This document shows, one piece after another, positions 2,638 through 27,012 of a stretch of 33,590 nucleotides of DNA. The notes beneath the pieces are model-generated. The model was given only the letters and a program-made list of their open reading frames with translations, did no database searches and was not told the DNA's origin. The stretch lies in the IMG/VR virus record IMGVR_UViG_3300032224_000160, positions 1 to 33,590 of that record; one strand, given 5' to 3'. A program made the translations under genes and the position numbers. Each line of letters opens with the position of its first letter. The first letter of the stretch is position 1. The DNA is from a virus.

Positions 2638-3850
2638 TCCTGCACCATATTCAAGTATGCATGATAGTTTATGGTATGTATCAAGTTCAACTAATGCAAC
2701 TAATGTAAACTTAACTTCATTTAAGTTTGTATATGATGTTTATGTTAGTGGTTCTCAGGTTAGTAGAACTAAAATATTCCCTGCACCTTCAGCCGAAGGA
2801 AGCTATGGAGTATTTAATGCATCACCAATGATTAGGTCATATGCAACTAATTACTTTGAACCTTCAGGTAGTTCTATATTAGTAGCTTCAAATGATAAGA
2901 TAAAAGTAGATGCTACAATACAGATAGGAGAAGAGTATATAAGTGGTGGCAATCTATTGACTAATTTAAACCTAGCATCAAGTGCATTAAGTGCTTATAA
3001 TTACTACCAACCATTATTTGCAGATATACTATTAAGCAATGCAGAAACACCATTGGTACTATCTGATTACTATGATAACCTATTAATACAAAACTTTACA
3101 AATGATTGGCTAACTGAACGAGATGTAAATAATATTATAATTGAATATGGTGATATATTTTATGCTACATTTTTTAAAGTAAGTGCAGGTTCTTATTCAG
3201 CTAAAATAGATGTAGTAAACGAAGCAGGTTCTGTAATAGATACTGCAAGTGGTTCAATTACATTTAGTGGGCAAATGAATATATTTAATTTAAGTGCTGC
3301 TAGTATTAATACTTTCGCAGGTAGAACTTTAATTAATGCAAATACTTGGGGTTATAATGTATCTATCAAATTAGGTGCAGCAGAATCTAGGAAGTTAAAA
3401 TTTACTCAAAAGTGTTATCCTAAATATAAACAGTTCAATCTTAATTTCCTTAATCGTTTAGGGGGATGGGATACAATGAAATTTGCATTAGTTAATAAAA
3501 GGTCTAGCGAATATACTAGAAGCAACTATAAAAGAAGTGATTGGCAGTTATTAGGAAATCAAATGAGCAATGTAGATAATTATAATAAATATAATGAAAG
3601 TACAATAAGCTATTCTATTCAACATAAAGATATGTACCATTTAGTTTCGGATTGGGTAAGCCAACAAGACTATGAATGGTTGGCACAATTAGTTGCTAGT
3701 CCTATTGTATACATAGAAGTACAAGGTGCTTATTTCCCTGTAGTTATATCATCTAATAATTATCAATACAAATTAGAGGTTTCAGATAAGTTATTTAATT
3801 TTGAAATAGATATTGAAATTTCTAAATATTTAAATAGCCAATACAGATAA
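2615..3850 (+). CDS. tail structural protein (distal tail region)
   Basis: This 411-residue beta-rich protein begins MAITIQSSPAPYSSMHDSLW, a start I associate with a recurrent tail protein of Bacteroidetes siphoviruses. The middle is rich in Ser, Asn and Tyr. The last 90 residues carry aromatic-rich motifs (SDWVSQQDYEWLAQLVASP). It overlaps the preceding gene by 23 bases and the next by one base. Position between the gp10-like gene and the 701-residue tail protein suggests a distal-tail or hub role. No enzymatic motif is seen. Confidence 0.55.
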   Translation: MAITIQSSPAPYSSMHDSLWYVSSSTNATNVNLTSFKFVYDVYVSGSQVSRTKIFPAPSAEGSYGVFNASPMIRSYATNYFEPSGSSILVASNDKIKVDATIQIGEEYISGGNLLTNLNLASSALSAYNYYQPLFADILLSNAETPLVLSDYYDNLLIQNFTNDWLTERDVNNIIIEYGDIFYATFFKVSAGSYSAKIDVVNEAGSVIDTASGSITFSGQMNIFNLSAASINTFAGRTLINANTWGYNVSIKLGAAESRKLKFTQKCYPKYKQFNLNFLNRLGGWDTMKFALVNKRSSEYTRSNYKRSDWQLLGNQMSNVDNYNKYNESTISYSIQHKDMYHLVSDWVSQQDYEWLAQLVASPIVYIEVQGAYFPVVISSNNYQYKLEVSDKLFNFEIDIEISKYLNSQYR

Positions 3851-5955
3851 TGATTAGCACAGAAATTTATATAGAAGATTATAGATTAGACTTATTACAA
3901 AATATAAGTACAGAGTTTAATTATACTATTGATGATATTGTAGATTTTGGTTCTAGGAATACTTCTTTCTCAAAGACTATAAACATAGCAGGTAATTCTA
4001 CTAACAATAGAATCTTTGGTTTTGTATTTGACTTAGGTAATGCAAACTTTACGGATAATACTTTCCCAAATGTTAACTATAATTTTAATGCTAGTAAATC
4101 TGCTAAGTGTAGAATATTTATAGATAAGATACAAGTATTTAAAGGCACATTAAGAATATTAGAAATAGTTATTGATAATAATAAGATAGAATATCAATGT
4201 TCTGTCTTTGGTGAGTTAGGTGGTTTTATATCTGCATTAGGTAATAAAAGATTAACAGGTAATGAAAATTCAAAAGATGATTTAGATTTTAGCGCATATG
4301 ACCATACTTTTATACACGAGAATATAACCCCTAGTTGGGAAGTATCAGGTGCTAGAGGAACTAATAATAGTTCAGGATATGGTTCAGGTTATTATTATCC
4401 ATTGATTGACTATGGAACATATAGTTCAGATAAATTAGATTATGATGTAATGACATTTAGACCTGCATTATTTGTAAAAGAATATTTAGAAAAGATATTT
4501 GCAGGAAGTGGTTATACTTATGACTTTCCTTTATTAAATACAGACCCATTTAAGAGATTAATAATCCCACATAATCAAAAAGTATTAACAACGGTAAGCA
4601 ATACTCAATTACAATCTACTCCTAATGCTACAACTTATACAGGTTCAAGTACAACTATACCAATAGGTTTTACTAATACTACTTTAGGTAATTTTACATA
4701 TGGAAGCAATACATATATTTATACAGGTGCATCATCTAAGGTAATGAATTTAGATTTTAAATTAGTTGGTTTATATACTGCAGGTGGAATAGCTACACTT
4801 AATGTTAAAAAGGCAATGGTTACTATTGGAAGTTATTATATTGGTGCGCCATTTGCAGGACATTATTTTACTGCTAATATTAATCTAACAGGAATAACTT
4901 TTAATCCAAGTGATAGTTTGACTTTCTCTTTAGATTGGACAAGTAGTTCATCTAGTTATAGCTTACAAGTATTTTCAGGTGGCAGTTTAAATTTAAGTAC
5001 TACAAGTTCAGATGTAGTTCCTTTAAATTATAACGAAGCTATTAAAATAAACAATGCTATACCTAAAGGAATATTTCAAAAGGATTTCTTTTTAAGCATT
5101 TGTAAGATGTATAATCTATATGTCTATGATGATATATTTACAGAGAAAAAGATATTTATAAAACCATACATAGACTTTTATCCTACAACAAGTGATAATG
5201 CTTTAGATTGGTCTAATAAAATAGACAGGTCTAAGCCATTAAGTATAAAACCAATGAGTGAACTAAATGCAAGATACTACCAATTCAAATACAAAGATGA
5301 TAATGATTACTATAATGAAAGCTATAAAAAGAAATATAATGAGAACTATGGTGATAGGTTATTTGATACTCTATATGACTTTAGTAAAGATACAGAATCA
5401 CTTGAGGTAATATTTGCATCTAGCCCATTAATACAAGCAACAGGTAGAGATAAGAGAATAACACAAATATTAAAGTTATCTGATAGTAATACTAAAGAAC
5501 AACAAATGGATAGTGTTATAAGAATAATGCAAGTGCAAAAAATAATAGGTGTAACAAGTTGGCATATACACGCACAAAATAGTAGCGGTAATTTAGTAAC
5601 ATTAACAAGCTATGGTTATGCAGGTCATTTGCATTTTAATGGAAGTGGAATACCTGATGAAGATATAAACTTTGGTGCGCCTAAAGAAGTTTATATAACA
5701 ACAACATCATATCCTACTACTAATTTATTTAATGCCTATCATAGTGATTATATGGCAGAGATAACAAGTAAAGATAGTAAGCTATTAAGTTGTTATGCTT
5801 TACTAAATACTAATGATATTAATACATTAGACTTTAGTAAGTTTATATGGATAGATGGAGTATTATTTAGATTGAATAAAGTAGAAGGATTTAATCCTAT
5901 GGAATACAATACAACAAAATTAAGTTTATTAAAAGTAATTGAAACAACATACTAA
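3850..5955 (+). CDS. large tail protein, hub/baseplate-like
   Basis: This 701-residue protein begins MISTEIYIEDYRLDLLQ. Residues about 15-60 (DDIVDFGSRNTSFSKTINIA, NNRIFGFVF) match a recurrent N-terminal module of large Bacteroidetes-phage tail proteins. A Ser/Thr/Gly-rich stretch (about 240-395) looks like an inserted beta-sandwich. The C-terminal half is Tyr- and Asn-rich, with a YLYVYDDIFTEKKIFIKP-like strand region typical of baseplate hubs. It starts on the stop codon of the preceding gene and ends on the start of the tape measure. A hub role is inferred from size and neighbours. Confidence 0.5.
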   Translation: MISTEIYIEDYRLDLLQNISTEFNYTIDDIVDFGSRNTSFSKTINIAGNSTNNRIFGFVFDLGNANFTDNTFPNVNYNFNASKSAKCRIFIDKIQVFKGTLRILEIVIDNNKIEYQCSVFGELGGFISALGNKRLTGNENSKDDLDFSAYDHTFIHENITPSWEVSGARGTNNSSGYGSGYYYPLIDYGTYSSDKLDYDVMTFRPALFVKEYLEKIFAGSGYTYDFPLLNTDPFKRLIIPHNQKVLTTVSNTQLQSTPNATTYTGSSTTIPIGFTNTTLGNFTYGSNTYIYTGASSKVMNLDFKLVGLYTAGGIATLNVKKAMVTIGSYYIGAPFAGHYFTANINLTGITFNPSDSLTFSLDWTSSSSSYSLQVFSGGSLNLSTTSSDVVPLNYNEAIKINNAIPKGIFQKDFFLSICKMYNLYVYDDIFTEKKIFIKPYIDFYPTTSDNALDWSNKIDRSKPLSIKPMSELNARYYQFKYKDDNDYYNESYKKKYNENYGDRLFDTLYDFSKDTESLEVIFASSPLIQATGRDKRITQILKLSDSNTKEQQMDSVIRIMQVQKIIGVTSWHIHAQNSSGNLVTLTSYGYAGHLHFNGSGIPDEDINFGAPKEVYITTTSYPTTNLFNAYHSDYMAEITSKDSKLLSCYALLNTNDINTLDFSKFIWIDGVLFRLNKVEGFNPMEYNTTKLSLLKVIETTY

Positions 5956-9926: not shown

Positions 9927-10445
9927 ATGGCGTGTGCATTAACACAGGGATATACCCTAGATTGTCGTGATTCCTTAGGTGGAATTACTGAAGTTTATTT
10001 TATTGCAAGTTCAGATGTCGCATCTATTACCGAAGCAAGTGGAGTTATTAGTGCAATCACTAAATCTTCAGGTAAGAGATTCTATAAATACGAATTAGTT
10101 AAAGGTACTTCAATGTTTACTGAAACAGTAGCAGCGAATGTACAGAATGGTACTTTGTATTATACAACTGAATTAACAATAATTTTAAATAAGTTACAAG
10201 CAAATACAAGAAATGAAATTCTTTTATTAGCTCAAAATAGATTGAATGCTGTTGCAAAAGATAGCAATGGTAAATTTTGGTATCTTGGTAAAACAAGAAC
10301 TTTAGATTTAACAGGTGGTAGTGCTGCAACAGGAACTGCTGAAGGAGATAGAAATGGTTACACTTTAACTTTTAGTGGAGCAGAACCTGCTTTATGCCCT
10401 GAAGTAAGTAGTTCTATTATAACTTCTTTAACAACTGCAGGATAG
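9927..10445 (+). CDS. major tail (tube) protein
   Basis: This 172-residue beta-rich protein begins MACALTQGYTLDCRDSLGG. It contains a central helix segment (LNKLQANTRNEILLLAQNRL) and late strands (YTLTFSGAEPALCPEVSSS), a pattern I recognise in major tail proteins of Bacteroidetes siphoviruses. It follows the capsid gene, is preceded and followed by terminators, and is therefore a strongly expressed single-gene unit. The ATG at 9927 has the A-rich leader AATAAACAAAA. The tube would be built from hexamer rings of this protein around the tape measure. Confidence 0.75.
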   Translation: MACALTQGYTLDCRDSLGGITEVYFIASSDVASITEASGVISAITKSSGKRFYKYELVKGTSMFTETVAANVQNGTLYYTTELTIILNKLQANTRNEILLLAQNRLNAVAKDSNGKFWYLGKTRTLDLTGGSAATGTAEGDRNGYTLTFSGAEPALCPEVSSSIITSLTTAG

Positions 10446-25210: not shown

Positions 25211-25636
25211 ATGCAATCAATAGAAACAAATATTATAGATTATTATTTAGCACAAAAGAGTAACTTAAAAAAACTAAAAGATACTTTAGTGGCACATAAT
25301 CTAATAGAGAGGGATGACAGGACAAGGAATAACAATAGGGTAACTATGAAGAACTTAGTTGGACTAGTTGAAGATGTTTTTGATACAGATGTATTAGCTA
25401 AAAATAGAAAGCAGAATACAGTATTTGCTAGAAAGGCTGCAGCTTATATATTAAAAAAACATACTTCATTATCTTTAAATGAGATTGCTCCATACATAGG
25501 AGTAAAAGACCATACAACAGTTCTTTATAATGTTTCAACTGCTAAAGACTTGATGGTTACTGAAGATTGGTATAAAAATAAAATTAATGAAATAGAGAAT
25601 GAAATCAAAAAATATAATACCTTTGTACAGAATTAA
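25211..25636 (+). CDS. protein with DnaA domain IV (DNA-binding) but no AAA+ domain
   Basis: This 141-residue protein has an N-terminal helical part (about 1-50). Residues about 52-125 match DnaA domain IV: FARKAAAYILKKHTSLSLNE (72-91), IAPYIGVKDHTTVLYNVSTA (92-111), with the signature DHTTVLY. In DnaA this domain binds DnaA boxes. The ATPase domain is absent and the protein is complete, so it could bind phage or host origin DNA without opening it. It lies 2 bases after the preceding gene and just before a structured leader and the initiator gene. Confidence 0.75.
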   Translation: MQSIETNIIDYYLAQKSNLKKLKDTLVAHNLIERDDRTRNNNRVTMKNLVGLVEDVFDTDVLAKNRKQNTVFARKAAAYILKKHTSLSLNEIAPYIGVKDHTTVLYNVSTAKDLMVTEDWYKNKINEIENEIKKYNTFVQN

Positions 25637-25721
25637 GATTATTGCAGAATCTTAAAGATTAAACTTTATTGCCCGAAGATGCGTAGGTACTGCAATTACC
25701 TGCAATTCCGAGGGCTTTTTT
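25633..25721 (+). ncRNA. structured leader with two hairpins and kissing loops, attenuator-like
   Basis: Hairpin 1: TTAAGATT (25633-25640) / AATCTTAA (25648-25655), loop ATTGCAG. Hairpin 2: GTAGGT (25683-25688) / ACCTGC (25698-25703), loop ACTGCAATT, extended by GCCC (25671) / GGGC (25712), then T6 (25716-25721). Loop 1 is perfectly complementary to CTGCAAT in loop 2 (25690-25696) and to a second CTGCAAT at 25700-25706. The T-run ends 3 bases before ATG 25725. The layout resembles an intrinsic terminator that could attenuate the initiator gene. Transcript and function are inferred. Confidence 0.5.
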
Positions 25722-25724
25722 ATT

Positions 25725-26351
25725 ATGAATAGAGATTTTAAAGGTGTATGGATACCAAAAGAAATTTGGATAGATAAAGATATAACTTGGATGGAAAAGT
25801 TACTTTTAGTAGAAATTAATAGCTTAGACAATATAGAAGGTTGCTATGCTTCTAATCAATATTTCGGAGATTTTTTTAATTTAAGTTCATCTAGAATAAG
25901 TGAAATAGTTAATTCATTAGTAGAAAAAAAGTATATAACAAGTACTTTAATATATGAAGGATTACAGGTAAAAAAGAGAGTATTAAAAATTAATTTGGTA
26001 TTCGGAATACCGAAGGGGGGTATTCGGAATACCGAAGGGGGGTATTCGGAAAAGGCGAAGGATAATAATACAATTATTAATAATACACTTATATATATAA
26101 AGGAATTTGAAAATTTACTAATTCCATTTAAAGACTTACTTTTAGAAAACTATCAGGAATTTTTTGAATATTGGACTGAGGCAAATTCAAAAGGTAAATT
26201 AAGATATCAAAGTGAAAAGTTTTTTGATGTTAAACGCAGAATTAATACTTGGTTAAAAAATAAAAATAATTATGGAAATACAAAAACATTTAGCTCAACC
26301 GCTGCAAGTCAACAACGAATGGCAACCCTTAAAGAGTGGATACATAGTTGA
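25725..26351 (+). CDS. replication initiator-like protein with N-terminal winged helix
   Basis: This 208-residue protein begins KGVWIPKEIWIDKDITWMEK (6-25), then LDNIEGCYASNQYFGDFFNL and SSSRISEIVNSLVEKKYI: a winged-helix DNA-binding domain (about 15-90) as in phage replication initiators. A linker (about 92-115) is encoded by tandem repeats in the DNA. The C-terminal half is helical (EFFEYWTEANSKGKLRYQSE) and basic. By layout and context it resembles lambda O: DNA-binding domain, repeat-encoded linker, partner-binding end, followed by a P-like gene. This analogy is inferred. Confidence 0.7.
   Translation: MNRDFKGVWIPKEIWIDKDITWMEKLLLVEINSLDNIEGCYASNQYFGDFFNLSSSRISEIVNSLVEKKYITSTLIYEGLQVKKRVLKINLVFGIPKGGIRNTEGGYSEKAKDNNTIINNTLIYIKEFENLLIPFKDLLLENYQEFFEYWTEANSKGKLRYQSEKFFDVKRRINTWLKNKNNYGNTKTFSSTAASQQRMATLKEWIHS
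25997..26062 (+). repeat. 22-bp tandem repeats in the initiator gene, origin iteron candidates
   Basis: Two perfect copies (25997-26018, 26019-26040) and a degenerate third (26041-26062) of a 22-bp unit starting GGTATTCGGAATACC. Each perfect unit contains a 7-bp dyad (GGTATTC-G-GAATACC). The period is not a multiple of 3, so the repeats encode different residues in each copy, which argues that selection acts on the DNA. Spacing is about two helical turns. Confidence 0.75.
26061..26100 (+). other. AT-rich tract beside the repeats, possible unwinding element
   Basis: Only 4 of 40 bases are G or C. It contains the perfect palindrome ATTATTAATAAT (26073-26084) and ends in ATATATATAA. It directly follows the tandem repeats, as the unwinding element follows the iterons in lambda-type origins. 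Confidence 0.5.
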
Positions 26352-27012
26352 TAATGAGATTCTAAATTCTTTCAATGGTGATAAATTAAACCTTATTTCA
26401 CCAATAGTTTTAAAAGAAAATTTAGCATATATCTTTACTTTGTTAGGATTTAAAAATTATCCTGATAAAGAAGAGATGGTTATAATTGAAGATTTTATTA
26501 GAACTAGCTATCCACTATACACGATACAGGAATTTAGAATAGCTTTTAAAATGGCAGTACAAGGTAAGTTAGATTGCAGTACAGACCATTACGAAAAGTT
26601 TAGTCCAAAGTTTATAGGGCAAGTGATGGCTGCCTATACAAAAAAAGCCAATGAAGTACGAAAAATGGTAAAACCGATTGTAAACGAAATAGAGCCACCT
26701 AAATTGTCAGATGAGGATATAGTATCATTTACCCAAAAAGAGTGGCTAGAATCGGCTAAGAATGACTTTAACAAGGTATTTAACGCAGATAAGGTATTTG
26801 AAATTCTATTAAAGTCTGGAAAATTGTCTTTTGAACCTGAAGAAATGCTACAAATTATACAGGAAGTTAGACTAGATAATCAATACAAACTTAATAAAAT
26901 GTATGGACAAGATGCAAAAGAGTTTAGCAAATTAATAAAAGATGATAAATTTGTTGATACACAATGTAAAAAACTAGCTTTAAAAAAATACTTTGAAAGT
27001 TTACCAAGTTAA
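26272..27012 (+). CDS. putative helicase-loader-like replication protein
   Basis: This 246-residue helical protein overlaps the initiator by 80 bases; ATG 26272 has an A-rich context and no nearby in-frame alternative. Motifs include LAYIFTLLGFKNYPDKEEMV (about 51-70), EFRIAFKMAVQGKLDC, then DHYEKFSPKFIGQVMAAYTK. The 'AF-MAV-GKLD---HYE-FS---IG-VM-AY' pattern recurs beside initiator genes in Bacteroidetes phages. By analogy with lambda O-P it could load the host helicase. I see no ATPase motif. Function is inferred. Confidence 0.55.
   Translation: MEIQKHLAQPLQVNNEWQPLKSGYIVDNEILNSFNGDKLNLISPIVLKENLAYIFTLLGFKNYPDKEEMVIIEDFIRTSYPLYTIQEFRIAFKMAVQGKLDCSTDHYEKFSPKFIGQVMAAYTKKANEVRKMVKPIVNEIEPPKLSDEDIVSFTQKEWLESAKNDFNKVFNADKVFEILLKSGKLSFEPEEMLQIIQEVRLDNQYKLNKMYGQDAKEFSKLIKDDKFVDTQCKKLALKKYFESLPS

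Follow-up and report, generated by a model that had tools for sequence, protein, structure and literature searches.

A covarying kissing-loop leader before the replication initiation gene of uncultivated phages, proposed to be a transcription attenuator

A short RNA with two mutually complementary hairpin loops precedes the replication initiation gene in a widespread group of uncultivated phages, and it probably acts as a switch on this gene, halting its transcription or letting it proceed. Judged by sequence comparison, it is a real RNA, the matching loops being kept while their letters change in dozens of phages, and it has apparently not been described so far. The element was noticed in a 33,590-nucleotide stretch of viral DNA, referred to here as the window (positions 1 to 33,590 of IMG/VR record IMGVR_UViG_3300032224_000160), and was followed in more than 100 related viral contigs, found with the DnaA-C protein and the product of a conserved 246-aa gene as queries. 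Comparison of these contigs shows a plus-strand RNA structure, loop-loop pairing, a conserved U-tract, a promoter box and a fixed gene position. We infer termination at the U-tract, the direction in which the kiss acts, and its formation within one RNA or also between RNAs. On balance we favour a promoter-proximal attenuator, in which the initiator mRNA would contain an intrinsic terminator clamped by a kissing loop. Such a strongly covarying RNA, absent from Rfam, sits where phages set the amount of replication initiator that is made.

Structure and covariation of the leader

In the window, the leader (25633-25724, plus strand) consists of two hairpins directly 5' of the replication initiator ATG. 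Hairpin 1 (25633-25655) has an 8-bp stem with arms TTAAGATT (25633-25640) and AATCTTAA (25648-25655), which closes the 7-nt loop ATTGCAG (loop 1, 25641-25647). A single-stranded linker of 15 nt (25656-25670), variable in sequence among relatives, leads to hairpin 2 (25671-25715). From its base upwards, hairpin 2 is composed of GCCC (25671-25674) paired with GGGC (25712-25715), a 3x3 internal loop (GAA/CGA), GA/TC, a further 3x3 internal loop (TGC/AAT) and an upper stem of 7 bp (GTAGGTA, 25683-25689, with TACCTGC, 25697-25703). This stem carries CTGCAAT (loop 2, 25690-25696), the kissing partner of loop 1 by both sequence and covariation. Six T residues (25716-25721) abut the GC-rich base of hairpin 2 in the manner of an intrinsic terminator, and the bases ATT follow before the initiator ATG at 25725. 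An earlier note, made from the letters alone, had described the two hairpins with exactly complementary 7-base loops, the GCCC/GGGC closure and the T6 that ends 3 bases before the ATG, and each of these is found in the sequence as it was described.

The MFE fold of the leader is exactly hairpin 1 plus hairpin 2 (-21.5 kcal/mol, z -2.45), and 3 of 200 shuffled leaders were equally stable. By loop type, the mean MFE of hairpin 2 ranges from -18 to -23 kcal/mol. The note had also allowed for competing folds, which we reject, since the two-hairpin fold is 8-10 kcal/mol better than nesting loop 1 onto either copy of CTGCAAT. The second of these copies does lie in the 3' flank of loop 2, within the 3' arm of hairpin 2 (25700-25706), as had been reported, but it is absent or altered in relatives (TACCTTCAAATCC in L107, CTGCAAA in L013); it is probably incidental, and a role for it was discarded on this ground. 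A scan for kissing pairs required stems of 6 bp or more in both hairpins, loops of 7 nt with a spacing of 23-60 nt between their starts, and complementarity at 7/7 loop positions; it found one pair in the whole window and none in 60 dinucleotide shuffles. The heptamer ATTGCAG is itself over-represented in the window (19 copies, 7.3 expected), so that the evidence lies in arrangement and covariation while the word carries no weight.

The element is found directly 3' of dnaA-C, between it and the next gene, in almost all relatives with sufficient flank, and it is still present where DnaA-C identity drops to 32%. There are at least 73 distinct element sequences and 107 distinct combinations of element and upstream flank. 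Near-complete contigs carry it once per genome, the extra rows in this count being weaker minus-strand images of the same site or contig ends. Six loop pairs occur (GTCGCAT/ATGCGAC, GTCGTAT/ATACGAC, ATTGCAG/CTGCAAT, ATGCGAC/GTCGCAT, ATGGTAC/GTACCAT and ATGCAAC/GTTGCAT), the fourth being the first with its loops exchanged, and in the at least 73 distinct elements every pair is Watson-Crick at 7/7 positions. The detectors of loop pairs also took 6/7 matches; these were few, were located elsewhere and came without the rest of the element.

Covariation was assessed in a gap-free alignment of 39 elements from which the variable linker had been removed. Of the pair cells in this alignment, 96.8% hold standard pairs; shuffles reach 71.6%, and shifting the partners by 1-3 columns lowers the figure to 33-41%. 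Pairing in the kiss helix is 100%; five of its seven pairs show double-sided changes, and the other two are invariant as U-A and A-U. Double-sided changes are likewise seen at all six modelled pairs of hairpin 1 and in the upper stem of hairpin 2, which is also 100% paired. In the stems, 18 cells are G-U and none is A-C, and the structure is therefore best read as plus-strand RNA. All 273 kiss cells of the 39 sequences are Watson-Crick, which, set against the G-U pairs of the stems, places the kiss under the stricter constraint. Covariation in related phages was the check named beforehand in the note; it is present, with loops complementary throughout, and it bears out the kissing interaction that had been suggested.

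Position 2 is U and position 6 is A in every loop, and the central pair is always G-C. In its letters, this layout (N-U-N-S-N-A-N) resembles an anticodon loop or U-turn. Compared with the YUNR motif, one loop of each pair reads U-N-G and so has the U-N-R core; position 1 of that loop is a purine in all six types, which departs from strict YUNR. U-turn loops occur in antisense RNAs selected for fast pairing. The 7-nt U2/A6 loops provide six natural kissing pairs that are mostly non-cross-reacting.

No known RNA family had been recognised in the leader from its letters, and Rfam is in agreement: the whole window matched no family of Rfam 15 at the curated threshold, the best permissive match of the window leader (E 0.96) was far below gathering, and neither the leader of L003 (up to E 2) nor nine relatives of different loop types gave a match. 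BLASTN of the leader against phages returned chance-level matches only. In 395 genomes of one class, a covariance model detected no copy, a weak search in which few candidates were scored per genome and no positive control was included. The DnaA-C query of cellular genome contigs gave two weak matches only, of which one or both were chromosomal dnaA genes.

Promoter box, U-tract and proposed attenuation

The Bacteroidota -7 box has the consensus TAnnTTTG, which in Flavobacterium johnsoniae is TAHHTTTG at -12 to -5 (PMC6847099, PMC9723704). A consensus match on the plus strand of the window, TACCTTTG (25618-25625), is predicted to be such a promoter box (TAHHTTTG) and would place the transcript start at ~25630, about 3 nt before hairpin 1. 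Of the 60 distinct elements with flank, 56 have the same box, which precedes loop 1 by 23-35 nt; 0.0085 would be expected per 13-nt interval. Apart from this site, the 550 nt around the element (-200 to +350) have hardly any such box on the sense strand. It should be noted that the box overlaps coding sequence and that its conservation stems partly from shared ancestry. It occupies two different dnaA-C reading frames in different lineages, which argues for selection on the DNA rather than on the peptide. On the minus strand, a scan for the TAHHTTTG consensus, which is not a transcript map, found boxes scattered in 21 of 61 and none that is conserved, and an antisense-promoter reading was rejected accordingly.

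The genes on either side fit the position proposed in the note, directly before a replication-initiation gene. Upstream, a dnaA-C-like gene (25211-25636, plus strand, 141 aa) encodes a DnaA C-terminal helix-turn-helix domain (Pfam Bac_DnaA_C, E 2e-14), and its stop codon falls within the 5' arm of hairpin 1. Downstream, a plus-strand gene of 208 aa (25725-26351) is assigned to replication initiation (replisome organiser) by PHROG matches (270, 19658, 2880 and 428, 'replication initiation protein') and a weak Pfam HTH_36 match; it is overlapped by the conserved 246-aa gene (26272-27012, plus strand), with which relatives were sought and from which the tree below was built. The N-terminal domain of the initiator is exchanged between several kinds, and its C-terminal part (phrog_19415), which overlaps the next gene, stays constant (window 25725-26351; L003 3521-4237; L025 3522-4133; L024 3522-4157).

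The terminator-like hairpin with its U-tract, already pointed out in the note, is kept in all versions of the element. Hairpin 2 is followed by a run of 4 to 8 T in all 62 distinct elements (at least 5 in 59), and the sequence signature of an intrinsic terminator, a GC-rich hairpin and then at least four U, is found in 62 of 62. Such tracts are unusual in the window: among the 42 gene starts examined there, T5 or longer within 20 nt upstream is found only at the initiator start behind the leader and at none of the other 41. In every relative the next gene starts a few nt past the U-tract, with no other obvious promoter between.

A promoter, a structured leader, a terminator-like hairpin and a start codon thus follow one another in the order expected of an attenuator. 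We propose that transcription would begin at a promoter inside the 3' end of dnaA-C and yield a transcript with hairpin 1 as its first structure. RNA polymerase would then make hairpin 2, whose 7-nt loop would pair fully with loop 1, and would meet the U-tract right after the GC-rich base of this hairpin, where intrinsic termination would occur. Much of the transcription would end ~92 nt from its start, and the initiator would be expressed by read-through only. The kiss would set the frequency of termination, most likely by clamping hairpin 2 during its emergence. Possibly, on longer transcripts of the operon, the ribosome that completes dnaA-C would in addition cover hairpin 1, and this masking would distinguish operon transcripts from those of the local promoter. 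In nearly all elements, loop 1 follows the dnaA-C stop codon at a distance of 4-13 nt, which hints that a terminating ribosome might cover hairpin 1.

That the downstream product is a replication initiation protein, in several N-terminal versions, speaks for attenuation. Several observations speak against it. Hairpin 2 is unusual as a terminator, since 3x3 internal loops interrupt its 4-5-bp base, and the leader showed no alternative fold that could act as an antiterminator. In L047 the U-tract is interrupted. Three relatives (L037, L040 and L042) are without the element, their dnaA-C stop and initiator ATG being 2 bases apart, and in L014 the next gene is DNA methyltransferase-like (3484-4404), inserted between the element, which stays beside dnaA-C, and the initiator. 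The three relatives without the element retain the promoter box TATATTTG.

The distance from loop 1 to loop 2 is 46-49 nt throughout (62 distinct elements), which favours an intramolecular kiss. By a rough estimate, a straight rod of hairpin 1, kiss and hairpin 2 would comprise ~34 layers, near or beyond the reach of a linker of 12-15 nt, and a kiss within one RNA would therefore need a bend or flexible 3x3 internal loops. A bend is known in 7-nt kissing complexes. A kiss between two molecules may also form.

Exchange of loop types and alternative readings

On the tree of the 246-aa gene (62 rows; a quick tree in which many forks are weakly supported), loop type changes 21 times, compared with a minimum of 6. 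Two phages, L096 and L097, have flanks of 95-100% identity upstream and 92-98% downstream, yet they carry different loop types, and their elements, 75% identical, are among the lowest 9 of 288 comparison windows in 8.7 kb. Conversely, the window under study and L013 share an element that is 97% identical between upstream flanks of just 78-88% identity. Over all pairs, elements of the same type have mean identities of 0.83 to 0.98, even with upstream genes 50-70% alike, and elements of different types average ~0.7 even in near-identical phages, with a few extreme values that are alignment artefacts. Loop type is independent of the N-terminal or DNA-binding domain of the initiator, and we rejected on this basis the idea that the element is an operator of the initiator or of DnaA-C. 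Predicted cross-pairing between types is weak, except in two G-U-tolerant combinations.

This allele-like exchange suggests recognition between RNA copies, with the loop types as immunity or incompatibility types, comparable to P4 CI RNA and to pIP501 RNAIII. A possible reading, which we hold only tentatively, is that the terminated leader accumulates as a type-specific RNA acting in trans, whose loops would pair with their complements in other nascent leaders so that phages of the same type shut down or limit each other's initiator expression. It is compatible with the attenuator, to which it adds a trans step, and would make the loop types, again tentatively, immunity or incompatibility groups. 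The 21 type changes where 6 would do, the different types of near-identical phages and the common types of distant ones, the general lack of cross-pairing, the independence from the DNA-binding domain of the initiator and the U-turn-like N-U-N-S-N-A-N loops would all be in keeping with such a trans RNA. Ordinary phage mosaicism could also give frequent type changes, however, with mutation from one type to another blocked because single loop changes break pairing. The constant loop spacing of 46-49 nt suggests that geometry within one RNA matters, and of the window proteins searched, none was recognised as an integrase, a repressor or a plasmid-maintenance protein. We speculate, with a good deal of doubt, that discrete and mostly orthogonal kissing types are swapped as a ~90-bp cassette, the released leader being an RNA-only means of self-recognition that works without a protein or an antisense strand. 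If true, this self-recognition would serve copy-number control, incompatibility or superinfection immunity, and types that recognise one another between molecules would form a phage RNA immunity or incompatibility code of at least six types.

In Flavobacterium johnsoniae, translation is reduced by RNA structure close to the start codon (PMC6847099). With hairpin 2 ending ~9-12 nt before the start codon and hairpin 1 at the predicted 5' end, the leader could restrict translation of the initiator, but we think this unlikely to be its function, as such a role would not need the conserved T4-T8 right after the hairpin, which differs from the usual A-rich upstream regions of this phage. It is rather improbable that the element belongs to the upstream operon, as a terminator or RNA-stabilising structure of dnaA-C or as a free-standing small RNA, with no downstream role. 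Its constancy behind dnaA-C even where a methyltransferase gene comes next (L014), and the dnaA-C stop codon that overlaps or adjoins hairpin 1, agree with this; on the other side, the next gene begins only a few nt past the U-tract in every relative, and the promoter box immediately before hairpin 1 indicates that a transcript begins with the element instead of stopping there. A riboswitch that senses a metabolite or a tRNA, the latter perhaps in the manner of a T-box through loops that resemble anticodons, would account for the leader position, the tertiary loop-loop contact, the terminator and the anticodon-loop pattern N-U-NNN-A-N. We nonetheless regard it as very improbable: no invariant sequence resembles a ligand pocket, the internal loops differ between types, and no Rfam riboswitch matches. 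The tRNA or T-box version was rejected because some of the anticodons that the loop triplets would require, such as ACC, are to our knowledge absent from bacteria. A conserved upstream open reading frame was likewise discarded, an ATG being present in many loop-1 types and missing from L054-like elements (TAAGTCGCAT) and from the window. We attach next to no credence to a DNA-level element, that is, inverted protein-binding sites (operator or iterons) or a single-stranded origin structure. ATTGCAG and CTGCAAT do form inverted and 10-bp-spaced direct repeats beside replication genes, but the loop words change completely while the proteins remain closely related, the stems show G-U and no A-C, and the same loops accompany many initiator types.

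A better candidate for the replication origin than the leader lies inside the initiator gene, where three 22-nt repeats with the palindrome GGTATTCGGAATACC are found (25997-26062 of the window). The initiator versions of L003 and L025 have different repeats at a similar place. In some phages the origin is located inside the initiator gene.

Known systems and phage context

The nearest functional parallels appear to be the CI RNA of phage P4 and RNAIII of plasmid pIP501. By the tests made, the element is a member of neither, as it has no Rfam match and no conserved antisense promoter, though it would act as they do if the proposed termination occurs. In satellite phage P4, whose immunity operates by leader termination with seqA, seqB and seqC, the CI RNA pairs with sequences on the same transcript and causes termination ahead of the P4 replication genes (PMC4825925). 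Both systems have a short sense-strand leader RNA in a phage replication operon with complementary parts on the same transcript, and premature termination before the replication genes, the outcome in P4, is what we propose here. The CI RNA is processed, however, with separate sites upstream and downstream, and belongs to a temperate phage-plasmid, whereas the complementary parts of the present element are the 7-nt loops of two hairpins, separated by 46-49 nt within a single small leader, and the phage is of flavobacterial type; the two RNAs have no sequence or Rfam match. RNAIII of pIP501 attenuates the initiator (repR) mRNA, and a U-turn loop and a requirement for paired loops are cited for it (PMC4981023). 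The element shares with pIP501 and pT181 an initiator mRNA leader, loop-loop kissing and a terminator-like sequence before the initiator, and the layout of its loops is U-turn-like. In those plasmids inhibition comes from an antisense RNA of its own, encoded on the opposite strand (the pIP501 leader being 329 bp), whereas in the element the two loops share one strand and no antisense promoter box is conserved. The element looks like a one-strand version of the plasmid antisense attenuators.

Other kissing RNAs are more distant. The fully complementary 7-nt loops of ColE1 RNAI and RNAII kiss, and loop sequence defines incompatibility; ColE1, however, controls a replication primer with two opposite-strand RNAs, and the element is a leader with a terminator-like hairpin. 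Two mutually complementary loops can link molecules of phi29 pRNA hand in hand, but this RNA belongs to the packaging motor, and its structure and gene context differ. The Guanidine-II riboswitch (mini-ykkC) also has two short hairpins with pairing loops, conserved tetraloops that bind the ligand, unlike the 7-nt loops of variable sequence found here, which have no Rfam match. The C4 antisense RNA of P1/P7-like phages lies on the same transcript as its target. It is listed as family RF01695 (PMC2864571), which the element does not match at the gathering threshold.

The virus record has portal, protease, tail and terminase genes in the window. Gene starts are A-rich upstream and poor in Shine-Dalgarno sequences (3 of 42 SD-like), and the portal protein is closest to those of Nonlabens (Flavobacteriaceae) phages; together these make a Bacteroidota host likely, though not proven. 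Among isolated phages, Nonlabens phage P12024S (L237, NC_018271.1) is nearest by its portal protein, and it has no such element. At 10156-10290 of this genome, TATATTTG is followed by a strong terminator-like hairpin and T5 shortly before gp15, possibly another attenuated leader in a flavophage. Two of the relatives bear on genome form. The 63-kb contig IMGVR_UViG_3300043436_001856 (L157 and L176; L200 and L221) contains the region twice, ~31.6 kb apart, which suggests a genome concatemer or a circular genome assembled twice round. In IMGVR_UViG_3300034064_000098 (L013/L031), the 3' end of the contig carries the element, part of which recurs at position 1, consistent with a circular or circularly permuted genome.
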